NCBI RefSeq assembly: GCF_000515215.1
Contig: NZ_KI911557.1
Span: 2,723,741 to 2,787,740 of the forward strand
DNA length: 64,000 nucleotides
Source of the DNA: Methylomonas sp. 11b
Lineage (GTDB): Bacteria > Pseudomonadota > Gammaproteobacteria > Methylococcales > Methylomonadaceae
Direction of reading: 5' to 3'
The position numbers were made by a program, and so were the translations under genes. Numbering within the stretch: the stretch's first letter is position 1; every line of letters begins with the position of its first letter. Below are positions 6,005 to 54,357 of the stretch, piece after piece. Under the pieces are notes generated by a model. The model worked only from the letters and a program-made list of their open reading frames with translations. It was not told the origin of the DNA and searched no databases.

Positions 6005-6931
6005 TTGGCAGACAGAATTATTCGTATCGCTACCCGGCAAAGCCCGCTGGCCTTGTGGCAGGCCGAGCATGTCGCGGCGCGGCTTGAGCAGGCGTTTCCG
6101 GGATTACAAACCGAGCTGGTAAAAATGGTCACCCGCGGCGACAAAATCCTCGACGCGCCATTGGCGAAAGTCGGCGGCAAGGGTTTGTTTGTCAAAGAAC
6201 TGGAACAAGGCATGCTGGAAGGCACGGCCGATATCGCGGTGCATTCCATGAAAGACGTGCCGGTGGAATTTCCGGAAGGCCTGCATCTAGCAGTCATCAT
6301 GGACCGCGAAGATCCGACCGACGCCTTTGTTTCCAACAATTATCGCAGTTTGGCCGAATTACCTGCCAATGCCCGGATCGGCACTTCCAGTCTCCGCCGC
6401 CAATGCCAAATCAAGGAAAAATTCCCAAATGCGGAAATTCTGAGCCTGCGCGGCAACGTCAACACTCGCTTGGCAAAATTGGATGCCGGCGAATACGATG
6501 CGATTATTTTGGCGTCCGCCGGATTGAAACGATTGGGGATGGGCAAGCGTATCACGGCCCAACTGGAACCGACGGAAAGCTTGCCGGCGATGGGCCAAGG
6601 TGCTATCGGCATCGAGTGCCGGATCGACGACGCCGAGATTCATGAGTATTTAAAGGTATTGCACGACGAAGACACCAGCATCCGAGTCGGCGCCGAGCGG
6701 GCGATGAATGCCCGACTCAACGGCGGTTGTCAGGTGCCGATTGCCGGTTTTGCGGAAATCAAAGGCCAGCGTTTGTTCATGCGTGGCCTAGTTGGCAGCC
6801 CGGACGGTTCCTTATTATATCGGGCCGAAGCGGAAAGCAGCCTCACCGACTTTGAAGCGTTGGGCAAGGCTGTGGCCGAGGATTTATTAGCGCAAGGCGC
6901 GGACCGGATATTGCGCGAGCTATACCAGTGA
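6005..6931 (+). CDS. hemC: Hydroxymethylbilane synthase (porphobilinogen deaminase)
   Basis: 308 residues starting at a TTG, which is where the family begins ([17 protein letters not shown]). It joins four porphobilinogens into hydroxymethylbilane in heme synthesis. Conserved elements seen: the substrate-binding [17 protein letters not shown], and Cys242 in NGGCQVP, the attachment point of the dipyrromethane cofactor at the same number as in Escherichia coli. First gene of hemC-hemD-hemX-hemY; its stop overlaps the hemD GTG start. Confidence 0.97.
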
Positions 6932-7710
6932 ATCAGGCTTTAAACGGCGCGCGGATCTTGGTGACGCGACCCGCGGCGCAGGCTGAAAATCTGTGCCATT
7001 TGATAGAACAACACGGCGGTGTGCCGATACGCTTTCCGACACTGGAAATCGTCGCAACCCAGCCCGACCCGGATTTGTTAAGCCAAGCCGCCGCCAGCGA
7101 TTGGCTGATTTTTACCAGCACCAATGCTGTGGATTTTGCTATCAAGGCGTTCGGTGGCAAAATGCCGGCCTTGCGTAAATTCAAAGTCGCGGCTGTCGGT
7201 GCCGCAACCGCCTGCGCATTGCAGCAAGCGGAATGGCCGGTGGATTGCGTGCCGGCCAGCGAATTTAACAGTGAGGGCTTGCTCGCCGAACCTGAATTAC
7301 AAACGGTAGCTGGCATGCGTTGCGTGATTGTGCGCGGTGTCGGTGGCCGGGAAAAACTGGCGGAAAGCTTGCGTAGCCGCGGCGCGGAAGCGAGTTATCT
7401 GGAAGTGTATAGCCGCCGCCAGCCAATGGCGAACAGCACGGATTTGCGGACAGACATATCCCAAGGGCGGCTGGACGCAGTAACGATCACCAGTGTCGAA
7501 GCTTTACAAAACTTGTTGGCGATGCTGGATGACGAGTCGATAGTATTGTTGAAATCGATACTTTTAATCGTCATGAGCGAGCGGATAGGCCAAGCGGCCG
7601 AAGATTTCGGATTTAACCAGATTGCAGTGAGCGCACAGCCCACGGATGCAGCGATTTTAGAGACCTTGACGACGTTATTGAACGGGGAAAACAGTGGCCG
7701 AAGTAATTGA
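6928..7710 (+). CDS. hemD: Uroporphyrinogen-III synthase
   Basis: 260 residues beginning at GTG (GTGA overlap with the hemC stop). It cyclises hydroxymethylbilane with inversion of ring D. The family is poorly conserved, but the start ([11 protein letters not shown]), the [11 protein letters not shown] segment, VAAVGAATA and the C-terminal [10 protein letters not shown] fit well. Position between hemC and hemX is the standard gammaproteobacterial order. It overlaps the next gene by 17 bp. Confidence 0.95.
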
Positions 7711-42081: not shown

Positions 42082-43035
42082 TCAAGCTGCATTGTTGAGG
42101 CAACCAATTTTCTGAGCGTCAAATCGGGCATCGGCTTGTTGCCAAAGCGAGAATGCGATGCGTAATAATTTTCTGGCGATAATCACCAGCGCCTGAGTTG
42201 CCGAGAACTCTCTGGCTCTTAACTCTTGGTAATAGGGTTTCCACACAGCCGTTTTGGCGGCTGCCTGGGCGCAGTTGTATAACAGCCGTCTCAGTTCACC
42301 CGGTCCCCGTTTGGATACGCGTCGGCGGCCCCGCTTTTGGCCTGAGTCACAGGCTCGGGGATCCAGCCCGACAAAGGCTACTACGGCATCGCTGCGGCTT
42401 AACGGGACCCGATCAAACAAGACAGCCAGCTGTGTTGAGGTTTGCCGGCCAATACCCGGTATGCTCTCAAGACGTCGGGCCTCGGCTTTCAGTGCAGGCT
42501 GCAAAGTTAATAAGTCATCCAGTTGCTGATCGATATGCTTGAGCAATCCGTCCAAGGCGGCCACGGTATCAATGAGTGGCGCTTCAAGTTCCTTCACGCT
42601 TCGCAAGGCTTTTTGCAGGGCTTGACGATGCTTGACGACCGTCGCACGGCGCCGTTGCAGTAAAGCCACTTGGTGCTGCATCGCCGAAGCAGGTTGATAG
42701 GGACGTAAATGACCCCGTTCAGCGGTGATAAATCGCCGGATCAGTTGGGCGTCCACTCGATCCGTCTTGCCCCGTCTGCCCAAACCCAGGGCATAATGGC
42801 GCATATGCCGTGGGTTCAGCACATAGACGACCATGCCCATCAATACCGCTTGCTCTGCCATGAGTTGATGATAATCGCTGGTGGCTTCCAGGCCAATATA
42901 ACTCCCGGTCGGTAACGTCTTCAGCCAGGCATCGATGGCCTCTGCCGTATTGGCAAGCGTCAACAAACCCTGCTCTGAATCTATCACCAGTTCATCTTTT
43001 GCTACATCGATACCGATCAACATTTCGCTTGTCAT
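42082..43035 (-). CDS. IS110-family transposase
   Basis: 317 residues from the ATG at 43035, preceded by GGAAGG; the frame is open to 43131 but the extra part is not conserved. The RuvC-like DEDD domain is seen as GIDVAKDEL, GLEATSDYHQ and GKTDRVDAQLIRRF. The C-terminal transposase-20 domain contains ESIPGIGRQTSTQLA, AFVGLDPRACDSG and RRRVSKRGPGELRRLLY. The Ser recombinase-like nucleophile region of IS110 lies in this last part. It appears full-length and possibly active. Confidence 0.95.
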   Translation of the reverse strand: MTSEMLIGIDVAKDELVIDSEQGLLTLANTAEAIDAWLKTLPTGSYIGLEATSDYHQLMAEQAVLMGMVVYVLNPRHMRHYALGLGRRGKTDRVDAQLIRRFITAERGHLRPYQPASAMQHQVALLQRRRATVVKHRQALQKALRSVKELEAPLIDTVAALDGLLKHIDQQLDDLLTLQPALKAEARRLESIPGIGRQTSTQLAVLFDRVPLSRSDAVVAFVGLDPRACDSGQKRGRRRVSKRGPGELRRLLYNCAQAAAKTAVWKPYYQELRAREFSATQALVIIARKLLRIAFSLWQQADARFDAQKIGCLNNAA

Positions 43036-43230
43036 ACATCCTTCCCCTGTTGAAAAATAAGAGAGTCGGGGTGGTGCGTCTGCCGAGTAAGCTTGTGCAC
43101 AAATCGGCGGTCTAACCGCTAGATTCTTCATCGACTCTGGAAGACGCGATGGGATGATTTCTCAGTGAGGTCTGTCTTAGCAGATGCTTGTCGATGTCCC
43201 TCCATCCCGACAACCAAAGTCTCCCCGATT
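43036..43230 (-). ncRNA. Candidate IS110 bridge-RNA region
   Basis: In the IS110 group the non-coding end upstream of the transposase encodes a structured bridge RNA that pairs with target and donor DNA. Here about 190 bases precede the gene on the same strand. Visible local structure includes GCGGT/ACCGC around TAG (near 43108-43120) and several GC-rich arms. No exact boundaries or binding loops could be derived by eye. Confidence 0.35.
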
Positions 43231-44100: not shown

Positions 44101-45159
44101 TCAGAGTCGAGCACGCAGACGACGCGGAACGAGACCCAGCAACGCGGAACCAAACAACCAGATGGCGCCTGGTATCGGCACGGACGCAATCGGATTTAAT
44201 AGAAAGGCTCGTTGCACGCCATTCGCGGCAATTCCCACCCCAACGATTTGTCCACTATTGTTGACATCGTAAGCTGTCATCAGCGTCCAGCCGATGTTGG
44301 CTGCAATCAGCGTGTTCAAGTCTGTCATGACGCCATTGAGCGTAACGAAAGCACGTTTCGATCCACCAAAATTATCGCCGAAATATCCCACGGCTTGTCC
44401 GGCGTTATTGATACCCAATGCCTCGCTGCTATAGCCGGACAAACCTATATCCATCATCTGGTCGTCAACAGTTGTAATGAACGCGTGCTTCTCATCGTTG
44501 GTGACAAGGGATGTGCCGGCCACCTGGCCGAGGTCGTTGATGGCATAACCTCTGCTGACACCCCAGGCAAGCGCGCCCAGATCCACCATTTGGCCATTAC
44601 GGGTAATAAAAGCGTGACCACCATTAGGTGTTTGACTCTCGCCAGTGACCTGACCGCTATTGTTGATTGCATTACCCGCACTCCAGTGACCACCATTCAA
44701 AGTTCCCAGATCAGTCAAGCTGCCGTTGCCGGCAATAGTGGCTCGTTGGTTGCCCTCGGCATTCCATGCACTGCCGACTATTTGCCCGGCATCATTGATT
44801 CCGTAGGCCACACTGGAATAAGGACTGCCGCTGAAACCACCGATTATTTGGGTGACACCATTACTGTGCACAATCCCGCGCCCGCCAGAATTGCCCACCA
44901 CCACACCGCTTGAATTGATCCCGGTAGGACTTGAATATCTGGGTACGGACAGCCAACTCACACTATTGTTTTTGTAAACAAAGCTTTCACCATCCCCCGT
45001 AAAACCCAGAACATGCCCGGCATCGCTGATAGAGACCGCCCCCGAACTGACTAACGGGCTATCCGGCATGAGATCCACCAACGTATACAAAACACCGGCG
45101 TGTGCCGGTAATACCGGCAGCATTAAGCCCAGGGCAAGACATCTCAGACTGCGTTTCAT
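44101..45159 (-). CDS. PEP-CTERM protein with HAF-type repeats
   Basis: 352 residues. Signal peptide (ending LPAHAG), then about eight repeats of a motif like GINNAGQIVGSA / AINNSGQVTGES, each roughly 40 residues, matching the HAF extracellular repeat. The C-terminus VPIPGAIWLFGSALLGL then RRLRARL is a PEP-CTERM sorting tail. Such proteins are exported, cleaved by an exosortase and placed at the surface or in the biofilm matrix. The exosortase is not in the window. Divergent from another PEP-CTERM gene at 45358. Confidence 0.88.
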   Translation of the reverse strand: MKRSLRCLALGLMLPVLPAHAGVLYTLVDLMPDSPLVSSGAVSISDAGHVLGFTGDGESFVYKNNSVSWLSVPRYSSPTGINSSGVVVGNSGGRGIVHSNGVTQIIGGFSGSPYSSVAYGINDAGQIVGSAWNAEGNQRATIAGNGSLTDLGTLNGGHWSAGNAINNSGQVTGESQTPNGGHAFITRNGQMVDLGALAWGVSRGYAINDLGQVAGTSLVTNDEKHAFITTVDDQMMDIGLSGYSSEALGINNAGQAVGYFGDNFGGSKRAFVTLNGVMTDLNTLIAANIGWTLMTAYDVNNSGQIVGVGIAANGVQRAFLLNPIASVPIPGAIWLFGSALLGLVPRRLRARL

Positions 45160-45357: not shown

Positions 45358-46104
45358 ATGATGAAACAGAAAGCTATATACGCCGCGCTATCCGGGCTCT
45401 GCATATTGGCGGCAGGTAGTGCCCAAGCCCAGTTGTTCGACCGCGGCGGCGGCCTGATTTACGACAGCGAGCTCAACGTCACCTGGCTGGCAGACGCCAA
45501 CTACGCCAATACTAGCGGCTCCTATAATCCAGGCAAAATGAGCTGGCAAAACGCCGTGGCCTGGGTGGAAGGCCTAAGCTATGCGGACAGCGTGCGCGGC
45601 ACCACCTACAGCGATTGGCGTCTGCCGACCTTTCACGACCTGGGCGCCCAGGGCTGCGACTATGGTTACAGTGGCACAGACTGTGGTTACAACGTCGATT
45701 TAGCCAGCTCGGAACTGGCGCATCTGTTCTACGGCGATTTCGCGAATAAGGGATACGCCGATTCGCGCGGCTTGCCCCAACCCGGCCACGGCCTCGTCGA
45801 CGACCCGTCCACGCCCAATGACGAAAGCCTGTTCAGCAACCTGCAATCCTTCAGCTATTGGCTGGGCAGCAGCTATTACAATGATGCCAACAAAGCCTGG
45901 TATTTGAACACCGCCACCGGCATGCAAAACTACATCAGCAAGGGCAACCAATTTTATGTTCTGGCAGTCCGCAGCGGCGACGTAACCGCGGTGCCGCTGC
46001 CCGGCACGGCCTTGTTCTTCGGCAGCCTCTTGGCGGGATTTTCGATCAACGCTTCCCGCCGCAAAATCGCTGAGGATTTCCCTAAAAACAACTTCCCGAA
46101 ATGA
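45358..46104 (+). CDS. PEP-CTERM protein with DUF1566-like domain
   Basis: 248 residues; two ATGs stand in tandem at 45358 and 45361. Signal peptide to about residue 24 (AQAQ), then a DUF1566-type domain recognised from YDSELNVTWLADANYA, the SWQNAVAWVEGL helix and YSDWRLPTFHDL. It ends with the sorting tail VPLPGTALFFGSLLAGF and a basic end, extended by a further 15 residues after the Arg/Lys cluster, which is longer than usual. Probable exosortase substrate at the cell surface. Confidence 0.87.
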   Translation: MMKQKAIYAALSGLCILAAGSAQAQLFDRGGGLIYDSELNVTWLADANYANTSGSYNPGKMSWQNAVAWVEGLSYADSVRGTTYSDWRLPTFHDLGAQGCDYGYSGTDCGYNVDLASSELAHLFYGDFANKGYADSRGLPQPGHGLVDDPSTPNDESLFSNLQSFSYWLGSSYYNDANKAWYLNTATGMQNYISKGNQFYVLAVRSGDVTAVPLPGTALFFGSLLAGFSINASRRKIAEDFPKNNFPK

Positions 46105-49263: not shown

Positions 49264-49857
49264 ATGAGAAGCTCTCGCATATTAAGAAACGGTTTACTGG
49301 GCTTGTTGGGCCTGATTTTTTCATCAGCAGTATTGGCGCACGGCGGTGCGGCGGGTACCGATACTGACCAATGTAAGTTCGAACTGGAAAAAGACCACTG
49401 GATCCATTACACCGCTTACCAGCCTAATGCCTACCCGGCGGAAGAGTTCTGCGGCAATATTCCCGATGTCAATACATTGACTCAATTGGTCTTCGACTAT
49501 CAAGACCAACGCTATCGCGGCATGGCTATCGAATTTGAAGTGACCAAAGAGCCGGAAGGTAAACGGGTTTTCTTCCAAGCAGCCGAAAAACACAAATCCG
49601 GCACCGTCATATTGAACCTGCCATCAGGCGTACAAGAAGCCGGCAAACATCTGATCCACATCACGCTACTGCAAGATAACGGCGAAAGATTGGATGCCCA
49701 CATGAGCTTTAAAGCCGGCGCAGGTCAACCGACCAGCAAAGGCAGCTATGCCTTGTATGCATTGGTGTTGTTCGCTGGCTTGTACATTTTTTATCTGTCT
49801 AACGCCGGCTTCAAACGTAAAGTCGACGAGATGATCGGTAAAGCGAAAGAAATCTAA
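49264..49857 (+). CDS. Periplasmic, C-terminally anchored protein of the copper locus
   Basis: 197 residues. A signal peptide ends SSAVLA, so the mature protein probably begins His-Gly-Gly (His26). Two cysteines (37 and 63) could form a disulfide. A beta-rich domain with several His (DHWIHY, KHLIHITL) is followed by one membrane helix (about 160-180) and a basic tail KRKVDEMIGKAKEI. An N-terminal His right after cleavage is also found in copper proteins such as PmoB, CopC and lytic polysaccharide monooxygenases, where it binds copper. I do not recognise the family; a copper role rests on this feature and on the cupredoxin gene next door. Confidence 0.75.
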   Translation: MRSSRILRNGLLGLLGLIFSSAVLAHGGAAGTDTDQCKFELEKDHWIHYTAYQPNAYPAEEFCGNIPDVNTLTQLVFDYQDQRYRGMAIEFEVTKEPEGKRVFFQAAEKHKSGTVILNLPSGVQEAGKHLIHITLLQDNGERLDAHMSFKAGAGQPTSKGSYALYALVLFAGLYIFYLSNAGFKRKVDEMIGKAKEI

Positions 49858-49875
49858 GAAATACGCCGCAAGACC

Positions 49876-49909
49876 CGTTATTCCGCCTATGCTGCGAGGC
49901 GGAATAACG
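49876..49909. repeat. 13-bp hairpin between the two copper-locus genes
   Basis: CGTTATTCCGCCT (49876-49888) and AGGCGGAATAACG (49897-49909) flank an 8-base loop. It sits 19 bases after the first gene and 82 before the second. With no T-run it may stabilise the upstream transcript or reduce read-through. Confidence 0.55.
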
Positions 49910-49990
49910 TACTTTCCGGCAGCCTTGTCAATCAGAACTATCGCGGCATAATCGACGCTATACATAACGCCCCTTCGAGGTAATGCAATA

Positions 49991-50887
49991 ATGGTCAAAT
50001 TCGTATCACTTGCCACACTGGTCTGTGCCTTGTCTGTTACTACTGTGTCCGCAAAAGAAATGCAGGATCACAATCAGATGATGAACCACGGCGACGGTCA
50101 TTTGATGGATATGGATGGCGGCATGGTCATGGGCCAAAACACCGACACCTTGCCCGGCGGCTGCGATAAAATTGCCGCGACCAAGGAAATTACCGTGCAT
50201 GCCGGACACAAGTATTCAGAGAAATTCCCAGGCACCATGTTTGCGTTCGATCAGCAGGAATTTCAATTCGAACCTTGCACCAAACTCACCGTACATTTCA
50301 TCAACGAAGATGAAATCCGCCATCAATGGATGATGCACGGCTTACCGAAATATTTGTACCCTAAAGGTATGTTCCATTTGGAAGTCAGCGGTCCGGGCAA
50401 AGTATCCGGCACGCTAATCCTGCCACCGGGAGACAAAACCTACTTAGTGCATTGCGACATAGCACAGCACATGGAAAAAGGCATGAAAGCCCAACTAAAA
50501 GTCGGCAAAGGCAGCGAAGACTTACCCAGCATCCCTGGCGTAACCGCAGCGATTTTCCCCGACGATTACAGCGGCAGACCTTACGATCCTAAACTCGATG
50601 CGCCGGCTCCCAGCTCAGCTGTGGTGGCGCCCGTAGTGGCAGCGGCACCCGCTCCGGCTCCCGTAGCTGACGACTCGATTGTGTCCGGCACTACCGTGAT
50701 TGGTTTGGCTATCGGCTTTATCGCCGCGCCTTGGCTGGCAAAACGCTTTAAAGGCATGAGCGCAGGCGAAATTATCGCTACCGTGCTGGAACAAGTCGCG
50801 CATGGCGTTGGCTATGTCATGCAATTGATCGGCAAGCTGATCAAAATGGTATCCGGCAAAAACGTCATCGCCTTACCGGATAAATAA
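49991..50887 (+). CDS. Cupredoxin-domain protein with His/Met-rich N-terminus and membrane anchor
   Basis: 298 residues. After the signal peptide comes a short His/Met/Asp-rich stretch (about residues 23-48; MQDHNQMMNHGDGH type) suited to copper. The cupredoxin domain (about 60-175) shows type-1 ligands: His in EIRHQW, then Cys-x4-His-x4-Met in HCDIAQHMEKGM, as in plastocyanin-like proteins. An Ala/Pro linker leads to a C-terminal segment with a hydrophobic stretch (about 230-252). It is likely a membrane-held periplasmic electron carrier or copper carrier. GAGG stands about 9 bases before the ATG, and a strong terminator follows. Confidence 0.88.
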   Translation: MVKFVSLATLVCALSVTTVSAKEMQDHNQMMNHGDGHLMDMDGGMVMGQNTDTLPGGCDKIAATKEITVHAGHKYSEKFPGTMFAFDQQEFQFEPCTKLTVHFINEDEIRHQWMMHGLPKYLYPKGMFHLEVSGPGKVSGTLILPPGDKTYLVHCDIAQHMEKGMKAQLKVGKGSEDLPSIPGVTAAIFPDDYSGRPYDPKLDAPAPSSAVVAPVVAAAPAPAPVADDSIVSGTTVIGLAIGFIAAPWLAKRFKGMSAGEIIATVLEQVAHGVGYVMQLIGKLIKMVSGKNVIALPDK

Positions 50888-50896
50888 ATACTAAGC

Positions 50897-50933
50897 AAAA
50901 AGCCCCTGAAACAACTGTTTCAGGGGCTTTTTT
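50897..50933 (+). terminator. Rho-independent terminator
   Basis: GC-rich perfect stem AAGCCCCTGAAAC / GTTTCAGGGGCTT with an AACT loop, flanked by A-run and TTTTTT. It ends the copper-locus transcript 9 bases after the cupredoxin stop, and ends 13 bases before the next start codon at 50947. Confidence 0.92.
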
Positions 50934-50946
50934 ATGGGCTAAACAA

Positions 50947-51369
50947 ATGCAGTTAGAATCGCTCGGCCCTCTGGGATTATTTATCAGCGCCTTCATTTCG
51001 TCGACTGTTGCACCGGGTGGTTCGGAAGCGATACTGGCCTATCTGGTTAACAGTCAACAACATTCGGTCAGTCAGTTGGTGGCTATCGCCAGCATCGGCA
51101 ACACACTGGGCGCAATGACGACTTGGTGGCTGGGACTATGGGCCGCGAAAAAATATCCCGCCGAGGCTTTAGCCAAACAACATCAAAAATCATTAAACAC
51201 CGTGCGCCGCTGGGGCAGTTGGGCCTTGCTATTTTCCTGGCTACCGTTAGTTGGCGATGGCCTGTGTTTTGCCGGCGGCTGGCTGCGCCTTTCCATACTG
51301 TCCTCGCTGTTGGCGATTTTTTTAGGTAAAGTGTTGCGCTATGTCGCCGTTGCCTACGCCTTTGTCTGA
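50947..51369 (+). CDS. YqaA/DedA-like small membrane protein
   Basis: 140 residues with about four hydrophobic segments. The sequence VAPGGSEAILAYLV, GNTLGAMTTWWLG and LFSWLPLVGDGLCFAGGWLR matches the YqaA family (VTT/SNARE-associated domain) of inner-membrane proteins. The charged GDGLCFAGG region is typical. Function in this family is lipid scrambling or membrane homeostasis at best guess. It follows a terminator immediately, has no visible ribosome binding site, and is 3 bases before the next membrane gene. Confidence 0.85.
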   Translation: MQLESLGPLGLFISAFISSTVAPGGSEAILAYLVNSQQHSVSQLVAIASIGNTLGAMTTWWLGLWAAKKYPAEALAKQHQKSLNTVRRWGSWALLFSWLPLVGDGLCFAGGWLRLSILSSLLAIFLGKVLRYVAVAYAFV

Positions 51370-51372
51370 GCT

Positions 51373-52134
51373 ATGAGTTTCTTTTCCTTACCGCACTTCC
51401 CCGCCGCCAATACCGTTGCCGAGCACCGCAAACGCGATTATCAGATTGCCGGGTTTACCTTTGTCACCACCACCATCTGTTTGACGATGGATGGCTTCGC
51501 GCCGCAATTCATGCAATACGTGCTGGCGTTTTTCGGTTGGGTGTTTTTGATCGCCTGGCTGCGCGGTGAATGTAAGTATGTACGCACTCAAGTGGCGGTG
51601 GCTGTCACCTTTGCGGTGATTGGGGAATATTTCGCTTCCGTATACATGAAAGGCTATATCTACCGCTTCGGCAATGTCCCGGCCTACGTGCCTGCCGGGC
51701 ATGGCCTAGTCTATCTAACCGCCGTGGCGCTGGGCCGTTCCGGCTTGTTTCAGCAACACGCCCGGCGCATCGCGGTTTTCGTTGTTACTGTCTGCGGCAC
51801 CTGGGTGGCTTGGGGCCTCAGTGGCATTGGGCGGCTAGACATTATCGGCGCAGTATTGTTTGTAGTGTTCCTGGGTTACTTGTTCAAAGGCCGCTCGCCT
51901 ATGGTTTACTTGGGCGCGTTCTTTATCACCTCCTGGCTGGAAATCGTCGGCACCAGCGCCGGCACCTGGGCCTGGGCCGAGATTGACCCCGCGTCGCACC
52001 TGCCGCAAGGCAACCCGCCCAGCGGTGTTGCCGCCTGGTATTGTTTGGTTGATGCGGTGGCTATTGCTGGCGCCGGCCCGGTATTGCAGGCCTTCACCAA
52101 AACCGCACTGGTGTTGCAGCGGCAACGGGCCTGA
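51373..52134 (+). CDS. Multi-pass membrane protein, unknown
   Basis: 253 residues with about seven membrane helices and conserved-looking loops (GYIYRFGNVPAYVPAGHG and a Trp-rich segment WLEIVGTSAGTWAWAE, then GNPPSG). It resembles unassigned families of multi-helix membrane proteins near lipid- or carotenoid-modifying enzymes, but I cannot name one. It is 3 bases after the YqaA-like gene and probably co-transcribed. Confidence 0.7.
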   Translation: MSFFSLPHFPAANTVAEHRKRDYQIAGFTFVTTTICLTMDGFAPQFMQYVLAFFGWVFLIAWLRGECKYVRTQVAVAVTFAVIGEYFASVYMKGYIYRFGNVPAYVPAGHGLVYLTAVALGRSGLFQQHARRIAVFVVTVCGTWVAWGLSGIGRLDIIGAVLFVVFLGYLFKGRSPMVYLGAFFITSWLEIVGTSAGTWAWAEIDPASHLPQGNPPSGVAAWYCLVDAVAIAGAGPVLQAFTKTALVLQRQRA

Positions 52135-53625: not shown

Positions 53626-54357
53626 CTATGCTGAACGGCGACTGCGAGCCACAATGCCCGCTAAGGCAGACCCGAACAGCCAAACAGCGCCAGGTACGGG
53701 CACAGAACTTGGCACCACATCGTAGCTTACCGAACCGATACCGGTCCACCATGGGTTACTCCATTCGATCAAGTAACCACTGGTTGATGTCAAGTTGCTG
53801 AAGCTGAATAGATTCGATAAATTGTTTACCCCAATCAATCCGGAGAATTCATACACCGGAACTGCCACGCCCAACTCGTAGACTTTAACGGTTTCAGCTC
53901 TGCCTGCTCCACTGCTATCCCAAGACCCTAATCGGAAATTGTTCAAAGTTACACTGCTGCCTCCGACCGAAGCAAGCTCGACCTGGGCTTTGTCACCACC
54001 ACTACTTGAACCTGTCCAAGCAGCAAATGGAAGATCATCTTAACCGGTAGTCCAGGTTTGCAGGGTACTGGTATGGACCCCGCCAGTGTTGTAATAGCGA
54101 TAGGAAACGTCTATTCCGGCCTGGTCTCCATACGATTGGCTGATATAGCCGGCTTGACCGACTGCTAACAAGGGACCCAATCCGAAAACATTGCTGCTAG
54201 CAATTTGTTTGGTGGTGTAATTGAAGTCCAAGACAGAGGCTTGGCTGGACGATGAAGTTAGAATGCAAACGGCGCCCAATAAAGCAGCCACTGAGCGGTT
54301 ATGAGCTCGGCGAGACAATTTGTTAGCTGAATTGATCGTTTGTTTATTGTTTTGCAT
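53626..54357 (-). pseudogene. PEP-CTERM protein interrupted by in-frame TAA
   Basis: The frame from the ATG at 54357 (AGGAGA upstream) to TAG at 53626 is continuous except for TAA at 54040-54042, codon 106. Before it: a signal peptide (AALLGAVCILTSSSSQA) and a domain with TTKQIASSNVFGLGP. After it, still in frame: FAAWTGSSSGGDKAQVELAS, SWDSSGAGRAETVKVYELG and the sorting tail VPVPGAVWLFGSALAG with basic end. Whole product would be 243 residues. The second half is well formed, so the break looks recent, or the stop may be read through. Confidence 0.85.

Follow-up and report, generated by a model that had tools for sequence, protein, structure and literature searches.

A PmoD-family protein of Methylomonas sp. 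11b with a predicted mature N-terminal histidine belongs to a gene trio with a cupredoxin and a multicopper oxidase

How copper and electrons are supplied to the particulate methane monooxygenase (pMMO) and to the ammonia monooxygenase (AMO) is an open question, and the copper-homeostasis protein that correlates most closely with both enzymes is PmoD (PMC6189053). The question is taken up here with two neighbouring genes in a stretch of 64,000 nucleotides from the single-contig, 5.4 Mb genome of Methylomonas sp. 11b (NZ_KI911557.1, positions 2,723,741 to 2,787,740; hereafter the window, to which plain coordinates refer), both of them intact open reading frames (ORFs) on the + strand. A first-pass annotation had located these ORFs correctly and described them as a membrane-anchored copper pair, the first protein of which, from a family it did not recognise, would begin with histidine after removal of its signal peptide. 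In the present analysis gene 1 is assigned to the known PmoD/AmoD family, and the pair belongs to a trio consisting of PmoD, a membrane-anchored multicopper oxidase (MCO) and a cupredoxin. The observation is sound: the family is known, the gene set of the copper monooxygenases less so, and it is directly testable. The features of the two genes are the following.

49264..49857, + strand: gene 1, PmoD/AmoD-family protein of 197 amino acids (aa) with signal peptide, periplasmic beta-sandwich and C-terminal membrane helix (ORF, PDB 6CPD by sequence and fold, model)
49264..49338, + strand: predicted signal peptide, residues 1-25, ending in VLA (conservation step between A25 and H26)
49339..49374, + strand: mature N-terminal tail HGGAAGTDTDQC, in which His26 is mature His1 and Cys37 mature Cys12 (conservation in 78 orthologues)
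49396..49452, + strand: core region from His45 and His48 (mature 20 and 23) to Cys63 (mature 38), without Met (sequence, alignments)
49738..49800, + strand: residues 159-179 of gene 1, a predicted membrane helix (in the model of the mature protein, helix 134-154)
49991..50887, + strand: gene 2, membrane-anchored cupredoxin of 298 aa (ORF; Pfam Cu-oxidase_2 barely at the cut-off with 20.4 bits; cupredoxin fold)
50057..50140, + strand: N-terminal arm of gene 2, rich in His and Met, behind the cut predicted by eye after VSA (sequence, alignment A4)
50321..50485, + strand: probable type-1 copper ligands His89, Cys133, His138 and Met143 in mature numbering (invariant in 36/36 sequences of A4; presumed roles)
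50687..50863, + strand: C-terminal membrane helix of gene 2 and a following helix (model helices 211-230 and 236-269)

The identity of gene 1 follows from its match to PDB 6CPD, the PmoD of Methylocystis sp. Rockwell (PMC6189053), in both sequence and fold searches, by which an unknown family was ruled out; no family in Pfam or NCBIfam scored above its cut-off. The two proteins have in common the fold, the signal peptide and single C-terminal membrane helix typical of PmoD/AmoD (predicted in gene 1), the two invariant cysteines and a host with a copper membrane monooxygenase, which Methylomonas sp. 11b encodes since its genome holds two PF04744 (pmoB-family) genes. Conservation was assessed in 78 orthologues out of 80 named loci, collected with the scan patterns DTDQCKF and HYTAYQP and aligned on DTDQC, so that only the segment AHGGAAGT is unbiased by selection; C37 and C63 are invariant in all 78 and in the 66 rows of alignment A3. 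However, the 6CPD protein (to which L207 is identical over the compared stretch) is encoded in a pmo operon, carries the CuA ligands Cx7MxH and has a mature start read by eye as EGGAG, whereas gene 1 has Cx10H without Met, starts HGGAAG and is grouped with cupredoxin and MCO. The CuA motif of PmoD, Cx7MxHxnC (PMC6189053), does not occur in gene 1 (C37-x10-H48), which therefore lies outside the CuA-forming subclass, as no Met stands between C37 and C63. All 35 Methylomonas genomes searched contain gene 1; among plasmids, just three Methylomonas records came up, each with less than 60% identity to it. Hosts like Methylomonas sp. DH-1, chosen because its pmo operon has no pmoD (PMC8764830), are thus probably not free of PmoD.

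Gene 2 is, within the explanation preferred below, probably a membrane-anchored type-1 cupredoxin: the mature arm, including HNQMMNHGDGHLMDMDGGMVMGQN, precedes a domain with a cupredoxin fold and a type-1 (blue) His-Cys-His-Met ligand set whose roles are presumed, and the closest fold matches are nitrosocyanin, auracyanin and other cupredoxins. Model helix 211-230 is suited to anchor the protein, and helix 236-269 looks amphipathic by eye; together with helix 134-154 of gene 1 this bears out the C-terminal membrane anchors proposed for both proteins. The site was correctly read as Cys-x4-His-x4-Met behind a His/Met-rich arm, but 'plastocyanin-like' is a loose label for it, because plastocyanin has Cys-x2-His-x4-Met.

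The two genes do co-occur. Of the 80 named loci, 78 have gene 2 behind gene 1 in the same orientation; the exceptions are L115, a paralogue locus, and L132, where the contig ends. General synteny may account for part of this, since a glucose-6-phosphate isomerase gene (recognised by eye; 72/80) and a VTT-like gene (57/80) are also kept. In the window the genes are 133 bp apart, and two hairpins were found, one between them and one past gene 2.

49876..49909, + strand: RNA hairpin of 13 pairs between genes 1 and 2, without a following T run (-21.7 kcal/mol, z -3.7; not listed by the terminator scan)
50897..50932, no single strand: hairpin terminator past gene 2, readable from both sides, -25.6 kcal/mol, z -6.8 (terminator scan on the - strand and folding)

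That the two copper-type proteins are part of a trio became apparent from the gaps between their genes. In 14 of the 78 loci the genes are more than 1.7 kb apart, and all seven such gaps that were opened hold the gene for an MCO of about 580 aa, whose C-terminal end looks hydrophobic by eye; clustering found the MCO in 15 of the 80 named loci. In Methylomonas sp. 11b itself the MCO gene (C1:2796359-2798098) lies beyond the end of the window, some 22 kb past gene 2. In Methylobacter luteus (L113), where the gap is short, a readable remnant of the MCO end is left between PmoD and cupredoxin (6592-6981, E 1.4e-4), and weaker traces occur in the gaps of L124, L134 and L135 (E 0.013 to 0.85); of the 14 gaps compared along with that of the window, the other ten and the window's own held none. 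The trio is adjacent on one strand, in varied surroundings, in the 11 examined loci of families f4 to f8, and PmoD adjoins the MCO in an f3 locus as far as the examined stretch reaches.

The neighbourhood of PmoD and MCO is already in print. MCO genes were reported near one PmoD motif class (PMC6189053), and in the available portion of PMC6688271 MCA2130 of M. capsulatus is a pmoD homologue beside an MCO and lower without copper, one PmoD gene of Methylacidiphilum likewise standing beside an MCO. MCA2130 resembles gene 1 as a PmoD homologue in a gammaproteobacterial methanotroph with an adjacent MCO gene and probably belongs to the same trio, whereas in the genome studied here just PmoD and cupredoxin are together and the MCO is about 22 kb away. 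In contrast, neither the cupredoxin as third member nor the position of the trio right behind pmoB was found among the titles and passages of the literature searched. For the M. capsulatus trio genes, no match by name came from the main text of PMC4831470, and PMC9445010 had none for accessory-protein terms. The best-scoring solved relative of the MCO is a two-domain multicopper oxidase of Nitrosomonas europaea (PDB 3g5w, E 6.7e-23); the trio MCO differs from it in its length of about 580 aa and its hydrophobic C-terminal end.

A link to the monooxygenase is given by gene order and co-occurrence, for which pmoB was searched in 29 of 301 genomes, picked as members of families f7 or f8 or for missing genes. 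Nine f7 and f8 genomes show the order pmoA-pmoB-PmoD-MCO-cupredoxin-VTT on one strand, preceded by pmoC in seven, so that MCO and cupredoxin, travelling with PmoD right behind pmoB, are two concrete partners that can be named. In other f7 genomes the trio stands apart from pmoB within the stretches examined (G006, G047, G053), PmoD follows pmoB without an adjoining MCO (G039) or the contig ends in the MCO (G062), and G068 was left out of this comparison. Family f7, which is at least in part Cycloclasticus or a Cycloclasticus symbiont, has pmoB in 13 of 18 genomes; MCO and cupredoxin are present in exactly those 13, PmoD in those and G071, and two of the five genomes without pmoB are 99% complete. 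The chance of such a 13/5 match is 1 in 8568 if the genomes were independent, which they are not. According to PMC12510462, these monooxygenase genes are missing from the isolate clade of Cycloclasticus and present in the other genomes analysed there.

Three side observations concern PmoD, pmoB and the trio. In two Methylomonas-type contigs the opposite strand carries the end of a pmoB gene some 6 kb past gene 1 (L104:12410-12589, L107:7032-7202). A second PmoD type, with a mature start HRGA by eye, is followed by a protein of 294-298 aa (L003:7752-8339, L187:12624-13229); in G173 the unit is found behind a pxm-like operon, and in Methylomonas sp. 11b the ORFs in the 17 kb examined included no recognised pmo gene (L003 was not searched with pmo queries). 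The VTT-like membrane gene behind our pair (50947-51369; 30.1 bits, below the Pfam cut-off of 33.9) also follows the cupredoxin in the nine loci with the trio behind pmoB, and next to it lies a predicted membrane protein of 253 aa (51373-52134) that reaches the cut-off of no Pfam family and recurs in 56 of the 80 named loci.

Taken together, PmoD, cupredoxin and MCO are probably a trio that serves copper membrane monooxygenases specifically (pMMO and its hydrocarbon relatives) and would supply them with copper. Four points favour supply or maintenance of copper: in f7 the genes go with the monooxygenase, the arm of the cupredoxin is rich in His and Met, Cu(I) could be oxidised by an MCO, and copper binding by PmoDs in vitro has been published. 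The His/Met-rich arm and the MCO might gather Cu(I) in the periplasm and adjust its redox state; PmoD might then take up copper at an N-terminal cluster of the free amine and imidazole of His1, Cys12, His20/23 and Cys38 and hand it to a nascent or copper-depleted monooxygenase in the same membrane. Direct results of the analysis are the family, the predicted fold, the gene order, the conservation and, in one family, the co-occurrence with pmoB, whereas copper binding by His1, the direction of transfer and the contact with pMMO are what we infer here.

Several results weigh against such a dedicated trio. Given the strong hairpin between genes 1 and 2, their co-transcription is no more than presumptive, and the f2 locus L086 has PmoD and cupredoxin with no MCO between them. 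As to co-occurrence, G204 has MCO and cupredoxin and neither pmoB nor PmoD, while G079 and G191 have PmoD and none of pmoB, MCO and cupredoxin. Moreover, pmoB or a piece of it is present in G009 without PmoD, in G276 without PmoD and cupredoxin, in G083 without cupredoxin, in G243 without MCO and in G293 without all three; some of the assemblies among these exceptions are incomplete.

The histidine at the predicted mature start of gene 1 is the second part of the question. Around the cut, a prediction with the signal peptide judged by eye, the sequence reads SSAVLA and then HGGAAGTDTDQC, residues 1-25 being signal-peptide-like. Conservation among the 78 orthologues changes there: residues 7-24 are mostly variable (F19 and S20 kept in 77), whereas A25-F39 are invariant with the sole exception of A30 (75/78), and His26 is present in all 78, in agreement with the cleavage after VLA and the conserved histidine that the first-pass annotation had foreseen. 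This nearly unchanging start suggests a putative copper site. Among 121 distinct PmoD-family ORFs, all from Methylococcales, the mature residue was His in 116 by eye, Asp in three, Gln in one and unclear in one (a script pattern scored 109, and seven rows labelled 'other' read SHGG, AHGG or AHRS by eye). A crude home-made signal-peptide rule found a +1 His in 65 of 123 PmoD-family ORFs, as against 4 of the 326 other exported ORFs (1.2%), the former figure being that low because the rule cuts too early in many ORFs.

Beyond the Methylococcales, a phylum-wide draw of 398 genomes gave three with a match to the PmoD profile at E 1e-4, namely the Methylomonas genome itself, G487 and G402. The alphaproteobacterium-like G487 has eight PmoD genes, four with His and the others with Glu, Gln, Ile or Ala; its Glu-type PmoD adjoins pmoB and carries the 6CPD sequence over the compared stretch. 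In G402, an ammonia oxidiser by its operons, His was read in four of five loci, including both PmoD-family genes of a complete amo operon, AmoD and AmoE (orf5 and orf4; L212, by eye); tblastn in three G402 stretches found no MCO or cupredoxin of the trio kind. A predicted N-terminal His is therefore a trait of much of the PmoD family and not of this pair alone. All constructs of PMC6189053 carry a vector-derived Ser-Met at the N-terminus, which would block an N-terminal His site, and the 6CPD chain starts five residues ahead of the first Cys; with His predicted in most PmoD-family sequences examined, the question becomes testable. Among the open-licence papers that the searches listed, no title or abstract opening names a mature N-terminal His in PmoD, and PMC12537917, on a hunt for N-terminal-His metalloproteins, contains 'pmod' 0 times.

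An alternative to a metal site is that the invariant HGG tail is a docking or protease-handling element, which we consider less likely than not. Mature residues 1-9 have a pLDDT (per-residue confidence of the model) under 50, so His1 is left unplaced, and a tail that is conserved yet unordered suits docking and metal binding alike. His1 is also not universal: three sequences begin with Asp, the alphaproteobacterial pmo-operon PmoD (the 6CPD sequence) begins with Glu, some paralogues have Gln, Ile or Ala, and since L181 (f6) is a complete trio with an Asp-type PmoD, the trio can dispense with it. The core His at mature position 23, the best candidate for a second ligand of a histidine brace, is missing from 57 of 183 sequences called His1 and does not covary with it (126/57 versus 5/6, Fisher p 0.18), which disfavours a simple brace. 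This set of 201 distinct sequences was drawn from the loci and P0241-P0300 (P0001-P0240 left out) and is skewed toward relatives of the A3 profile; seven rows without motif were set aside, and four 'non-His' rows (L180, P0288, P0294 and the doubtful P0291), miscalled automatically, read HG by eye, giving His in 187 of 194. What speaks against mere docking is the rarity of +1 His in other exported ORFs and the fact that in CopC and PmoB the N-terminal His is known to bind copper; according to PMC12537917, a free N-terminal His can chelate metal unaided.

The equation with the braces of PmoB, CopC and lytic polysaccharide monooxygenases (LPMOs) found no support in the form proposed. Gene 1 shares the predicted mature N-terminal His with these proteins and with PCuAC, but no sequence relation to the N-terminal region of PmoB was found, and its second brace His is a candidate only. 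Homology of PmoD to that region, prompted by the shared HG start, was dropped at an hhalign probability of 0.5%; pMMO chains were absent among the Foldseek and VIA matches listed for gene 1, which excludes nothing. A bolder version, in which the N-terminal His is an overlooked ancestral copper ligand of PmoD/AmoD masked in the constructs of Fisher et al. and the trio, at first encoded together with pmoCAB and dispersed afterwards, is a copper-insertion and redox-tuning complex reserved for the monooxygenases with which Methylococcales oxidise methane and alkanes, is put forward only tentatively.

Electron delivery is the main rival to copper supply, although in our estimate an unlikely one: cupredoxin and PmoD would form a membrane-tethered electron wire to pMMO, with the MCO as safety valve or oxygen-dependent side branch. 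Type-1 copper sites carry electrons, gene 2 has nitrosocyanin and auracyanin among its fold neighbours, the trio stands right behind pmoB in nine genomes, and reducing equivalents are listed as a possible PmoD role in PMC6189053. In that study, however, CuA was formed only by proteins with the motif, and gene 1 lacks both motif and Met; furthermore, electrons would be drawn off to oxygen by an MCO that belongs to the same unit.

General periplasmic copper tolerance, by a detoxification set of the CueO/CopC kind with no specificity for pMMO, appears quite improbable. An MCO with a His/Met-rich cupredoxin does resemble copper-resistance sets, the MCO is similar to CopA-type and CueO oxidases in NCBIfam, far below cut-off, G204 keeps MCO and cupredoxin with no pmoB match, and the lower level of MCA2130 without copper (PMC6688271, in excerpt) would fit as well. 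Yet presence agrees with pmoB in 18 of 18 f7 genomes, the trio directly follows pmoB in nine, and 395 of the 398 phylum-wide genomes have no PmoD match, whereas copper tolerance is widely needed. A catalytic oxygenase of the LPMO type, for which the His directly after the signal peptide and weak Foldseek matches to GbpA and CopC could be cited, is highly improbable.

Elsewhere in the window, three ORFs (44101-45159, 45358-46104 and 53626-53946) end in V-P-x-P-G, a hydrophobic segment and an Arg-rich tail, like a PEP-CTERM sorting signal, and an ORF at 42082-43131 resembles, by eye, a transposase of the IS110 kind.
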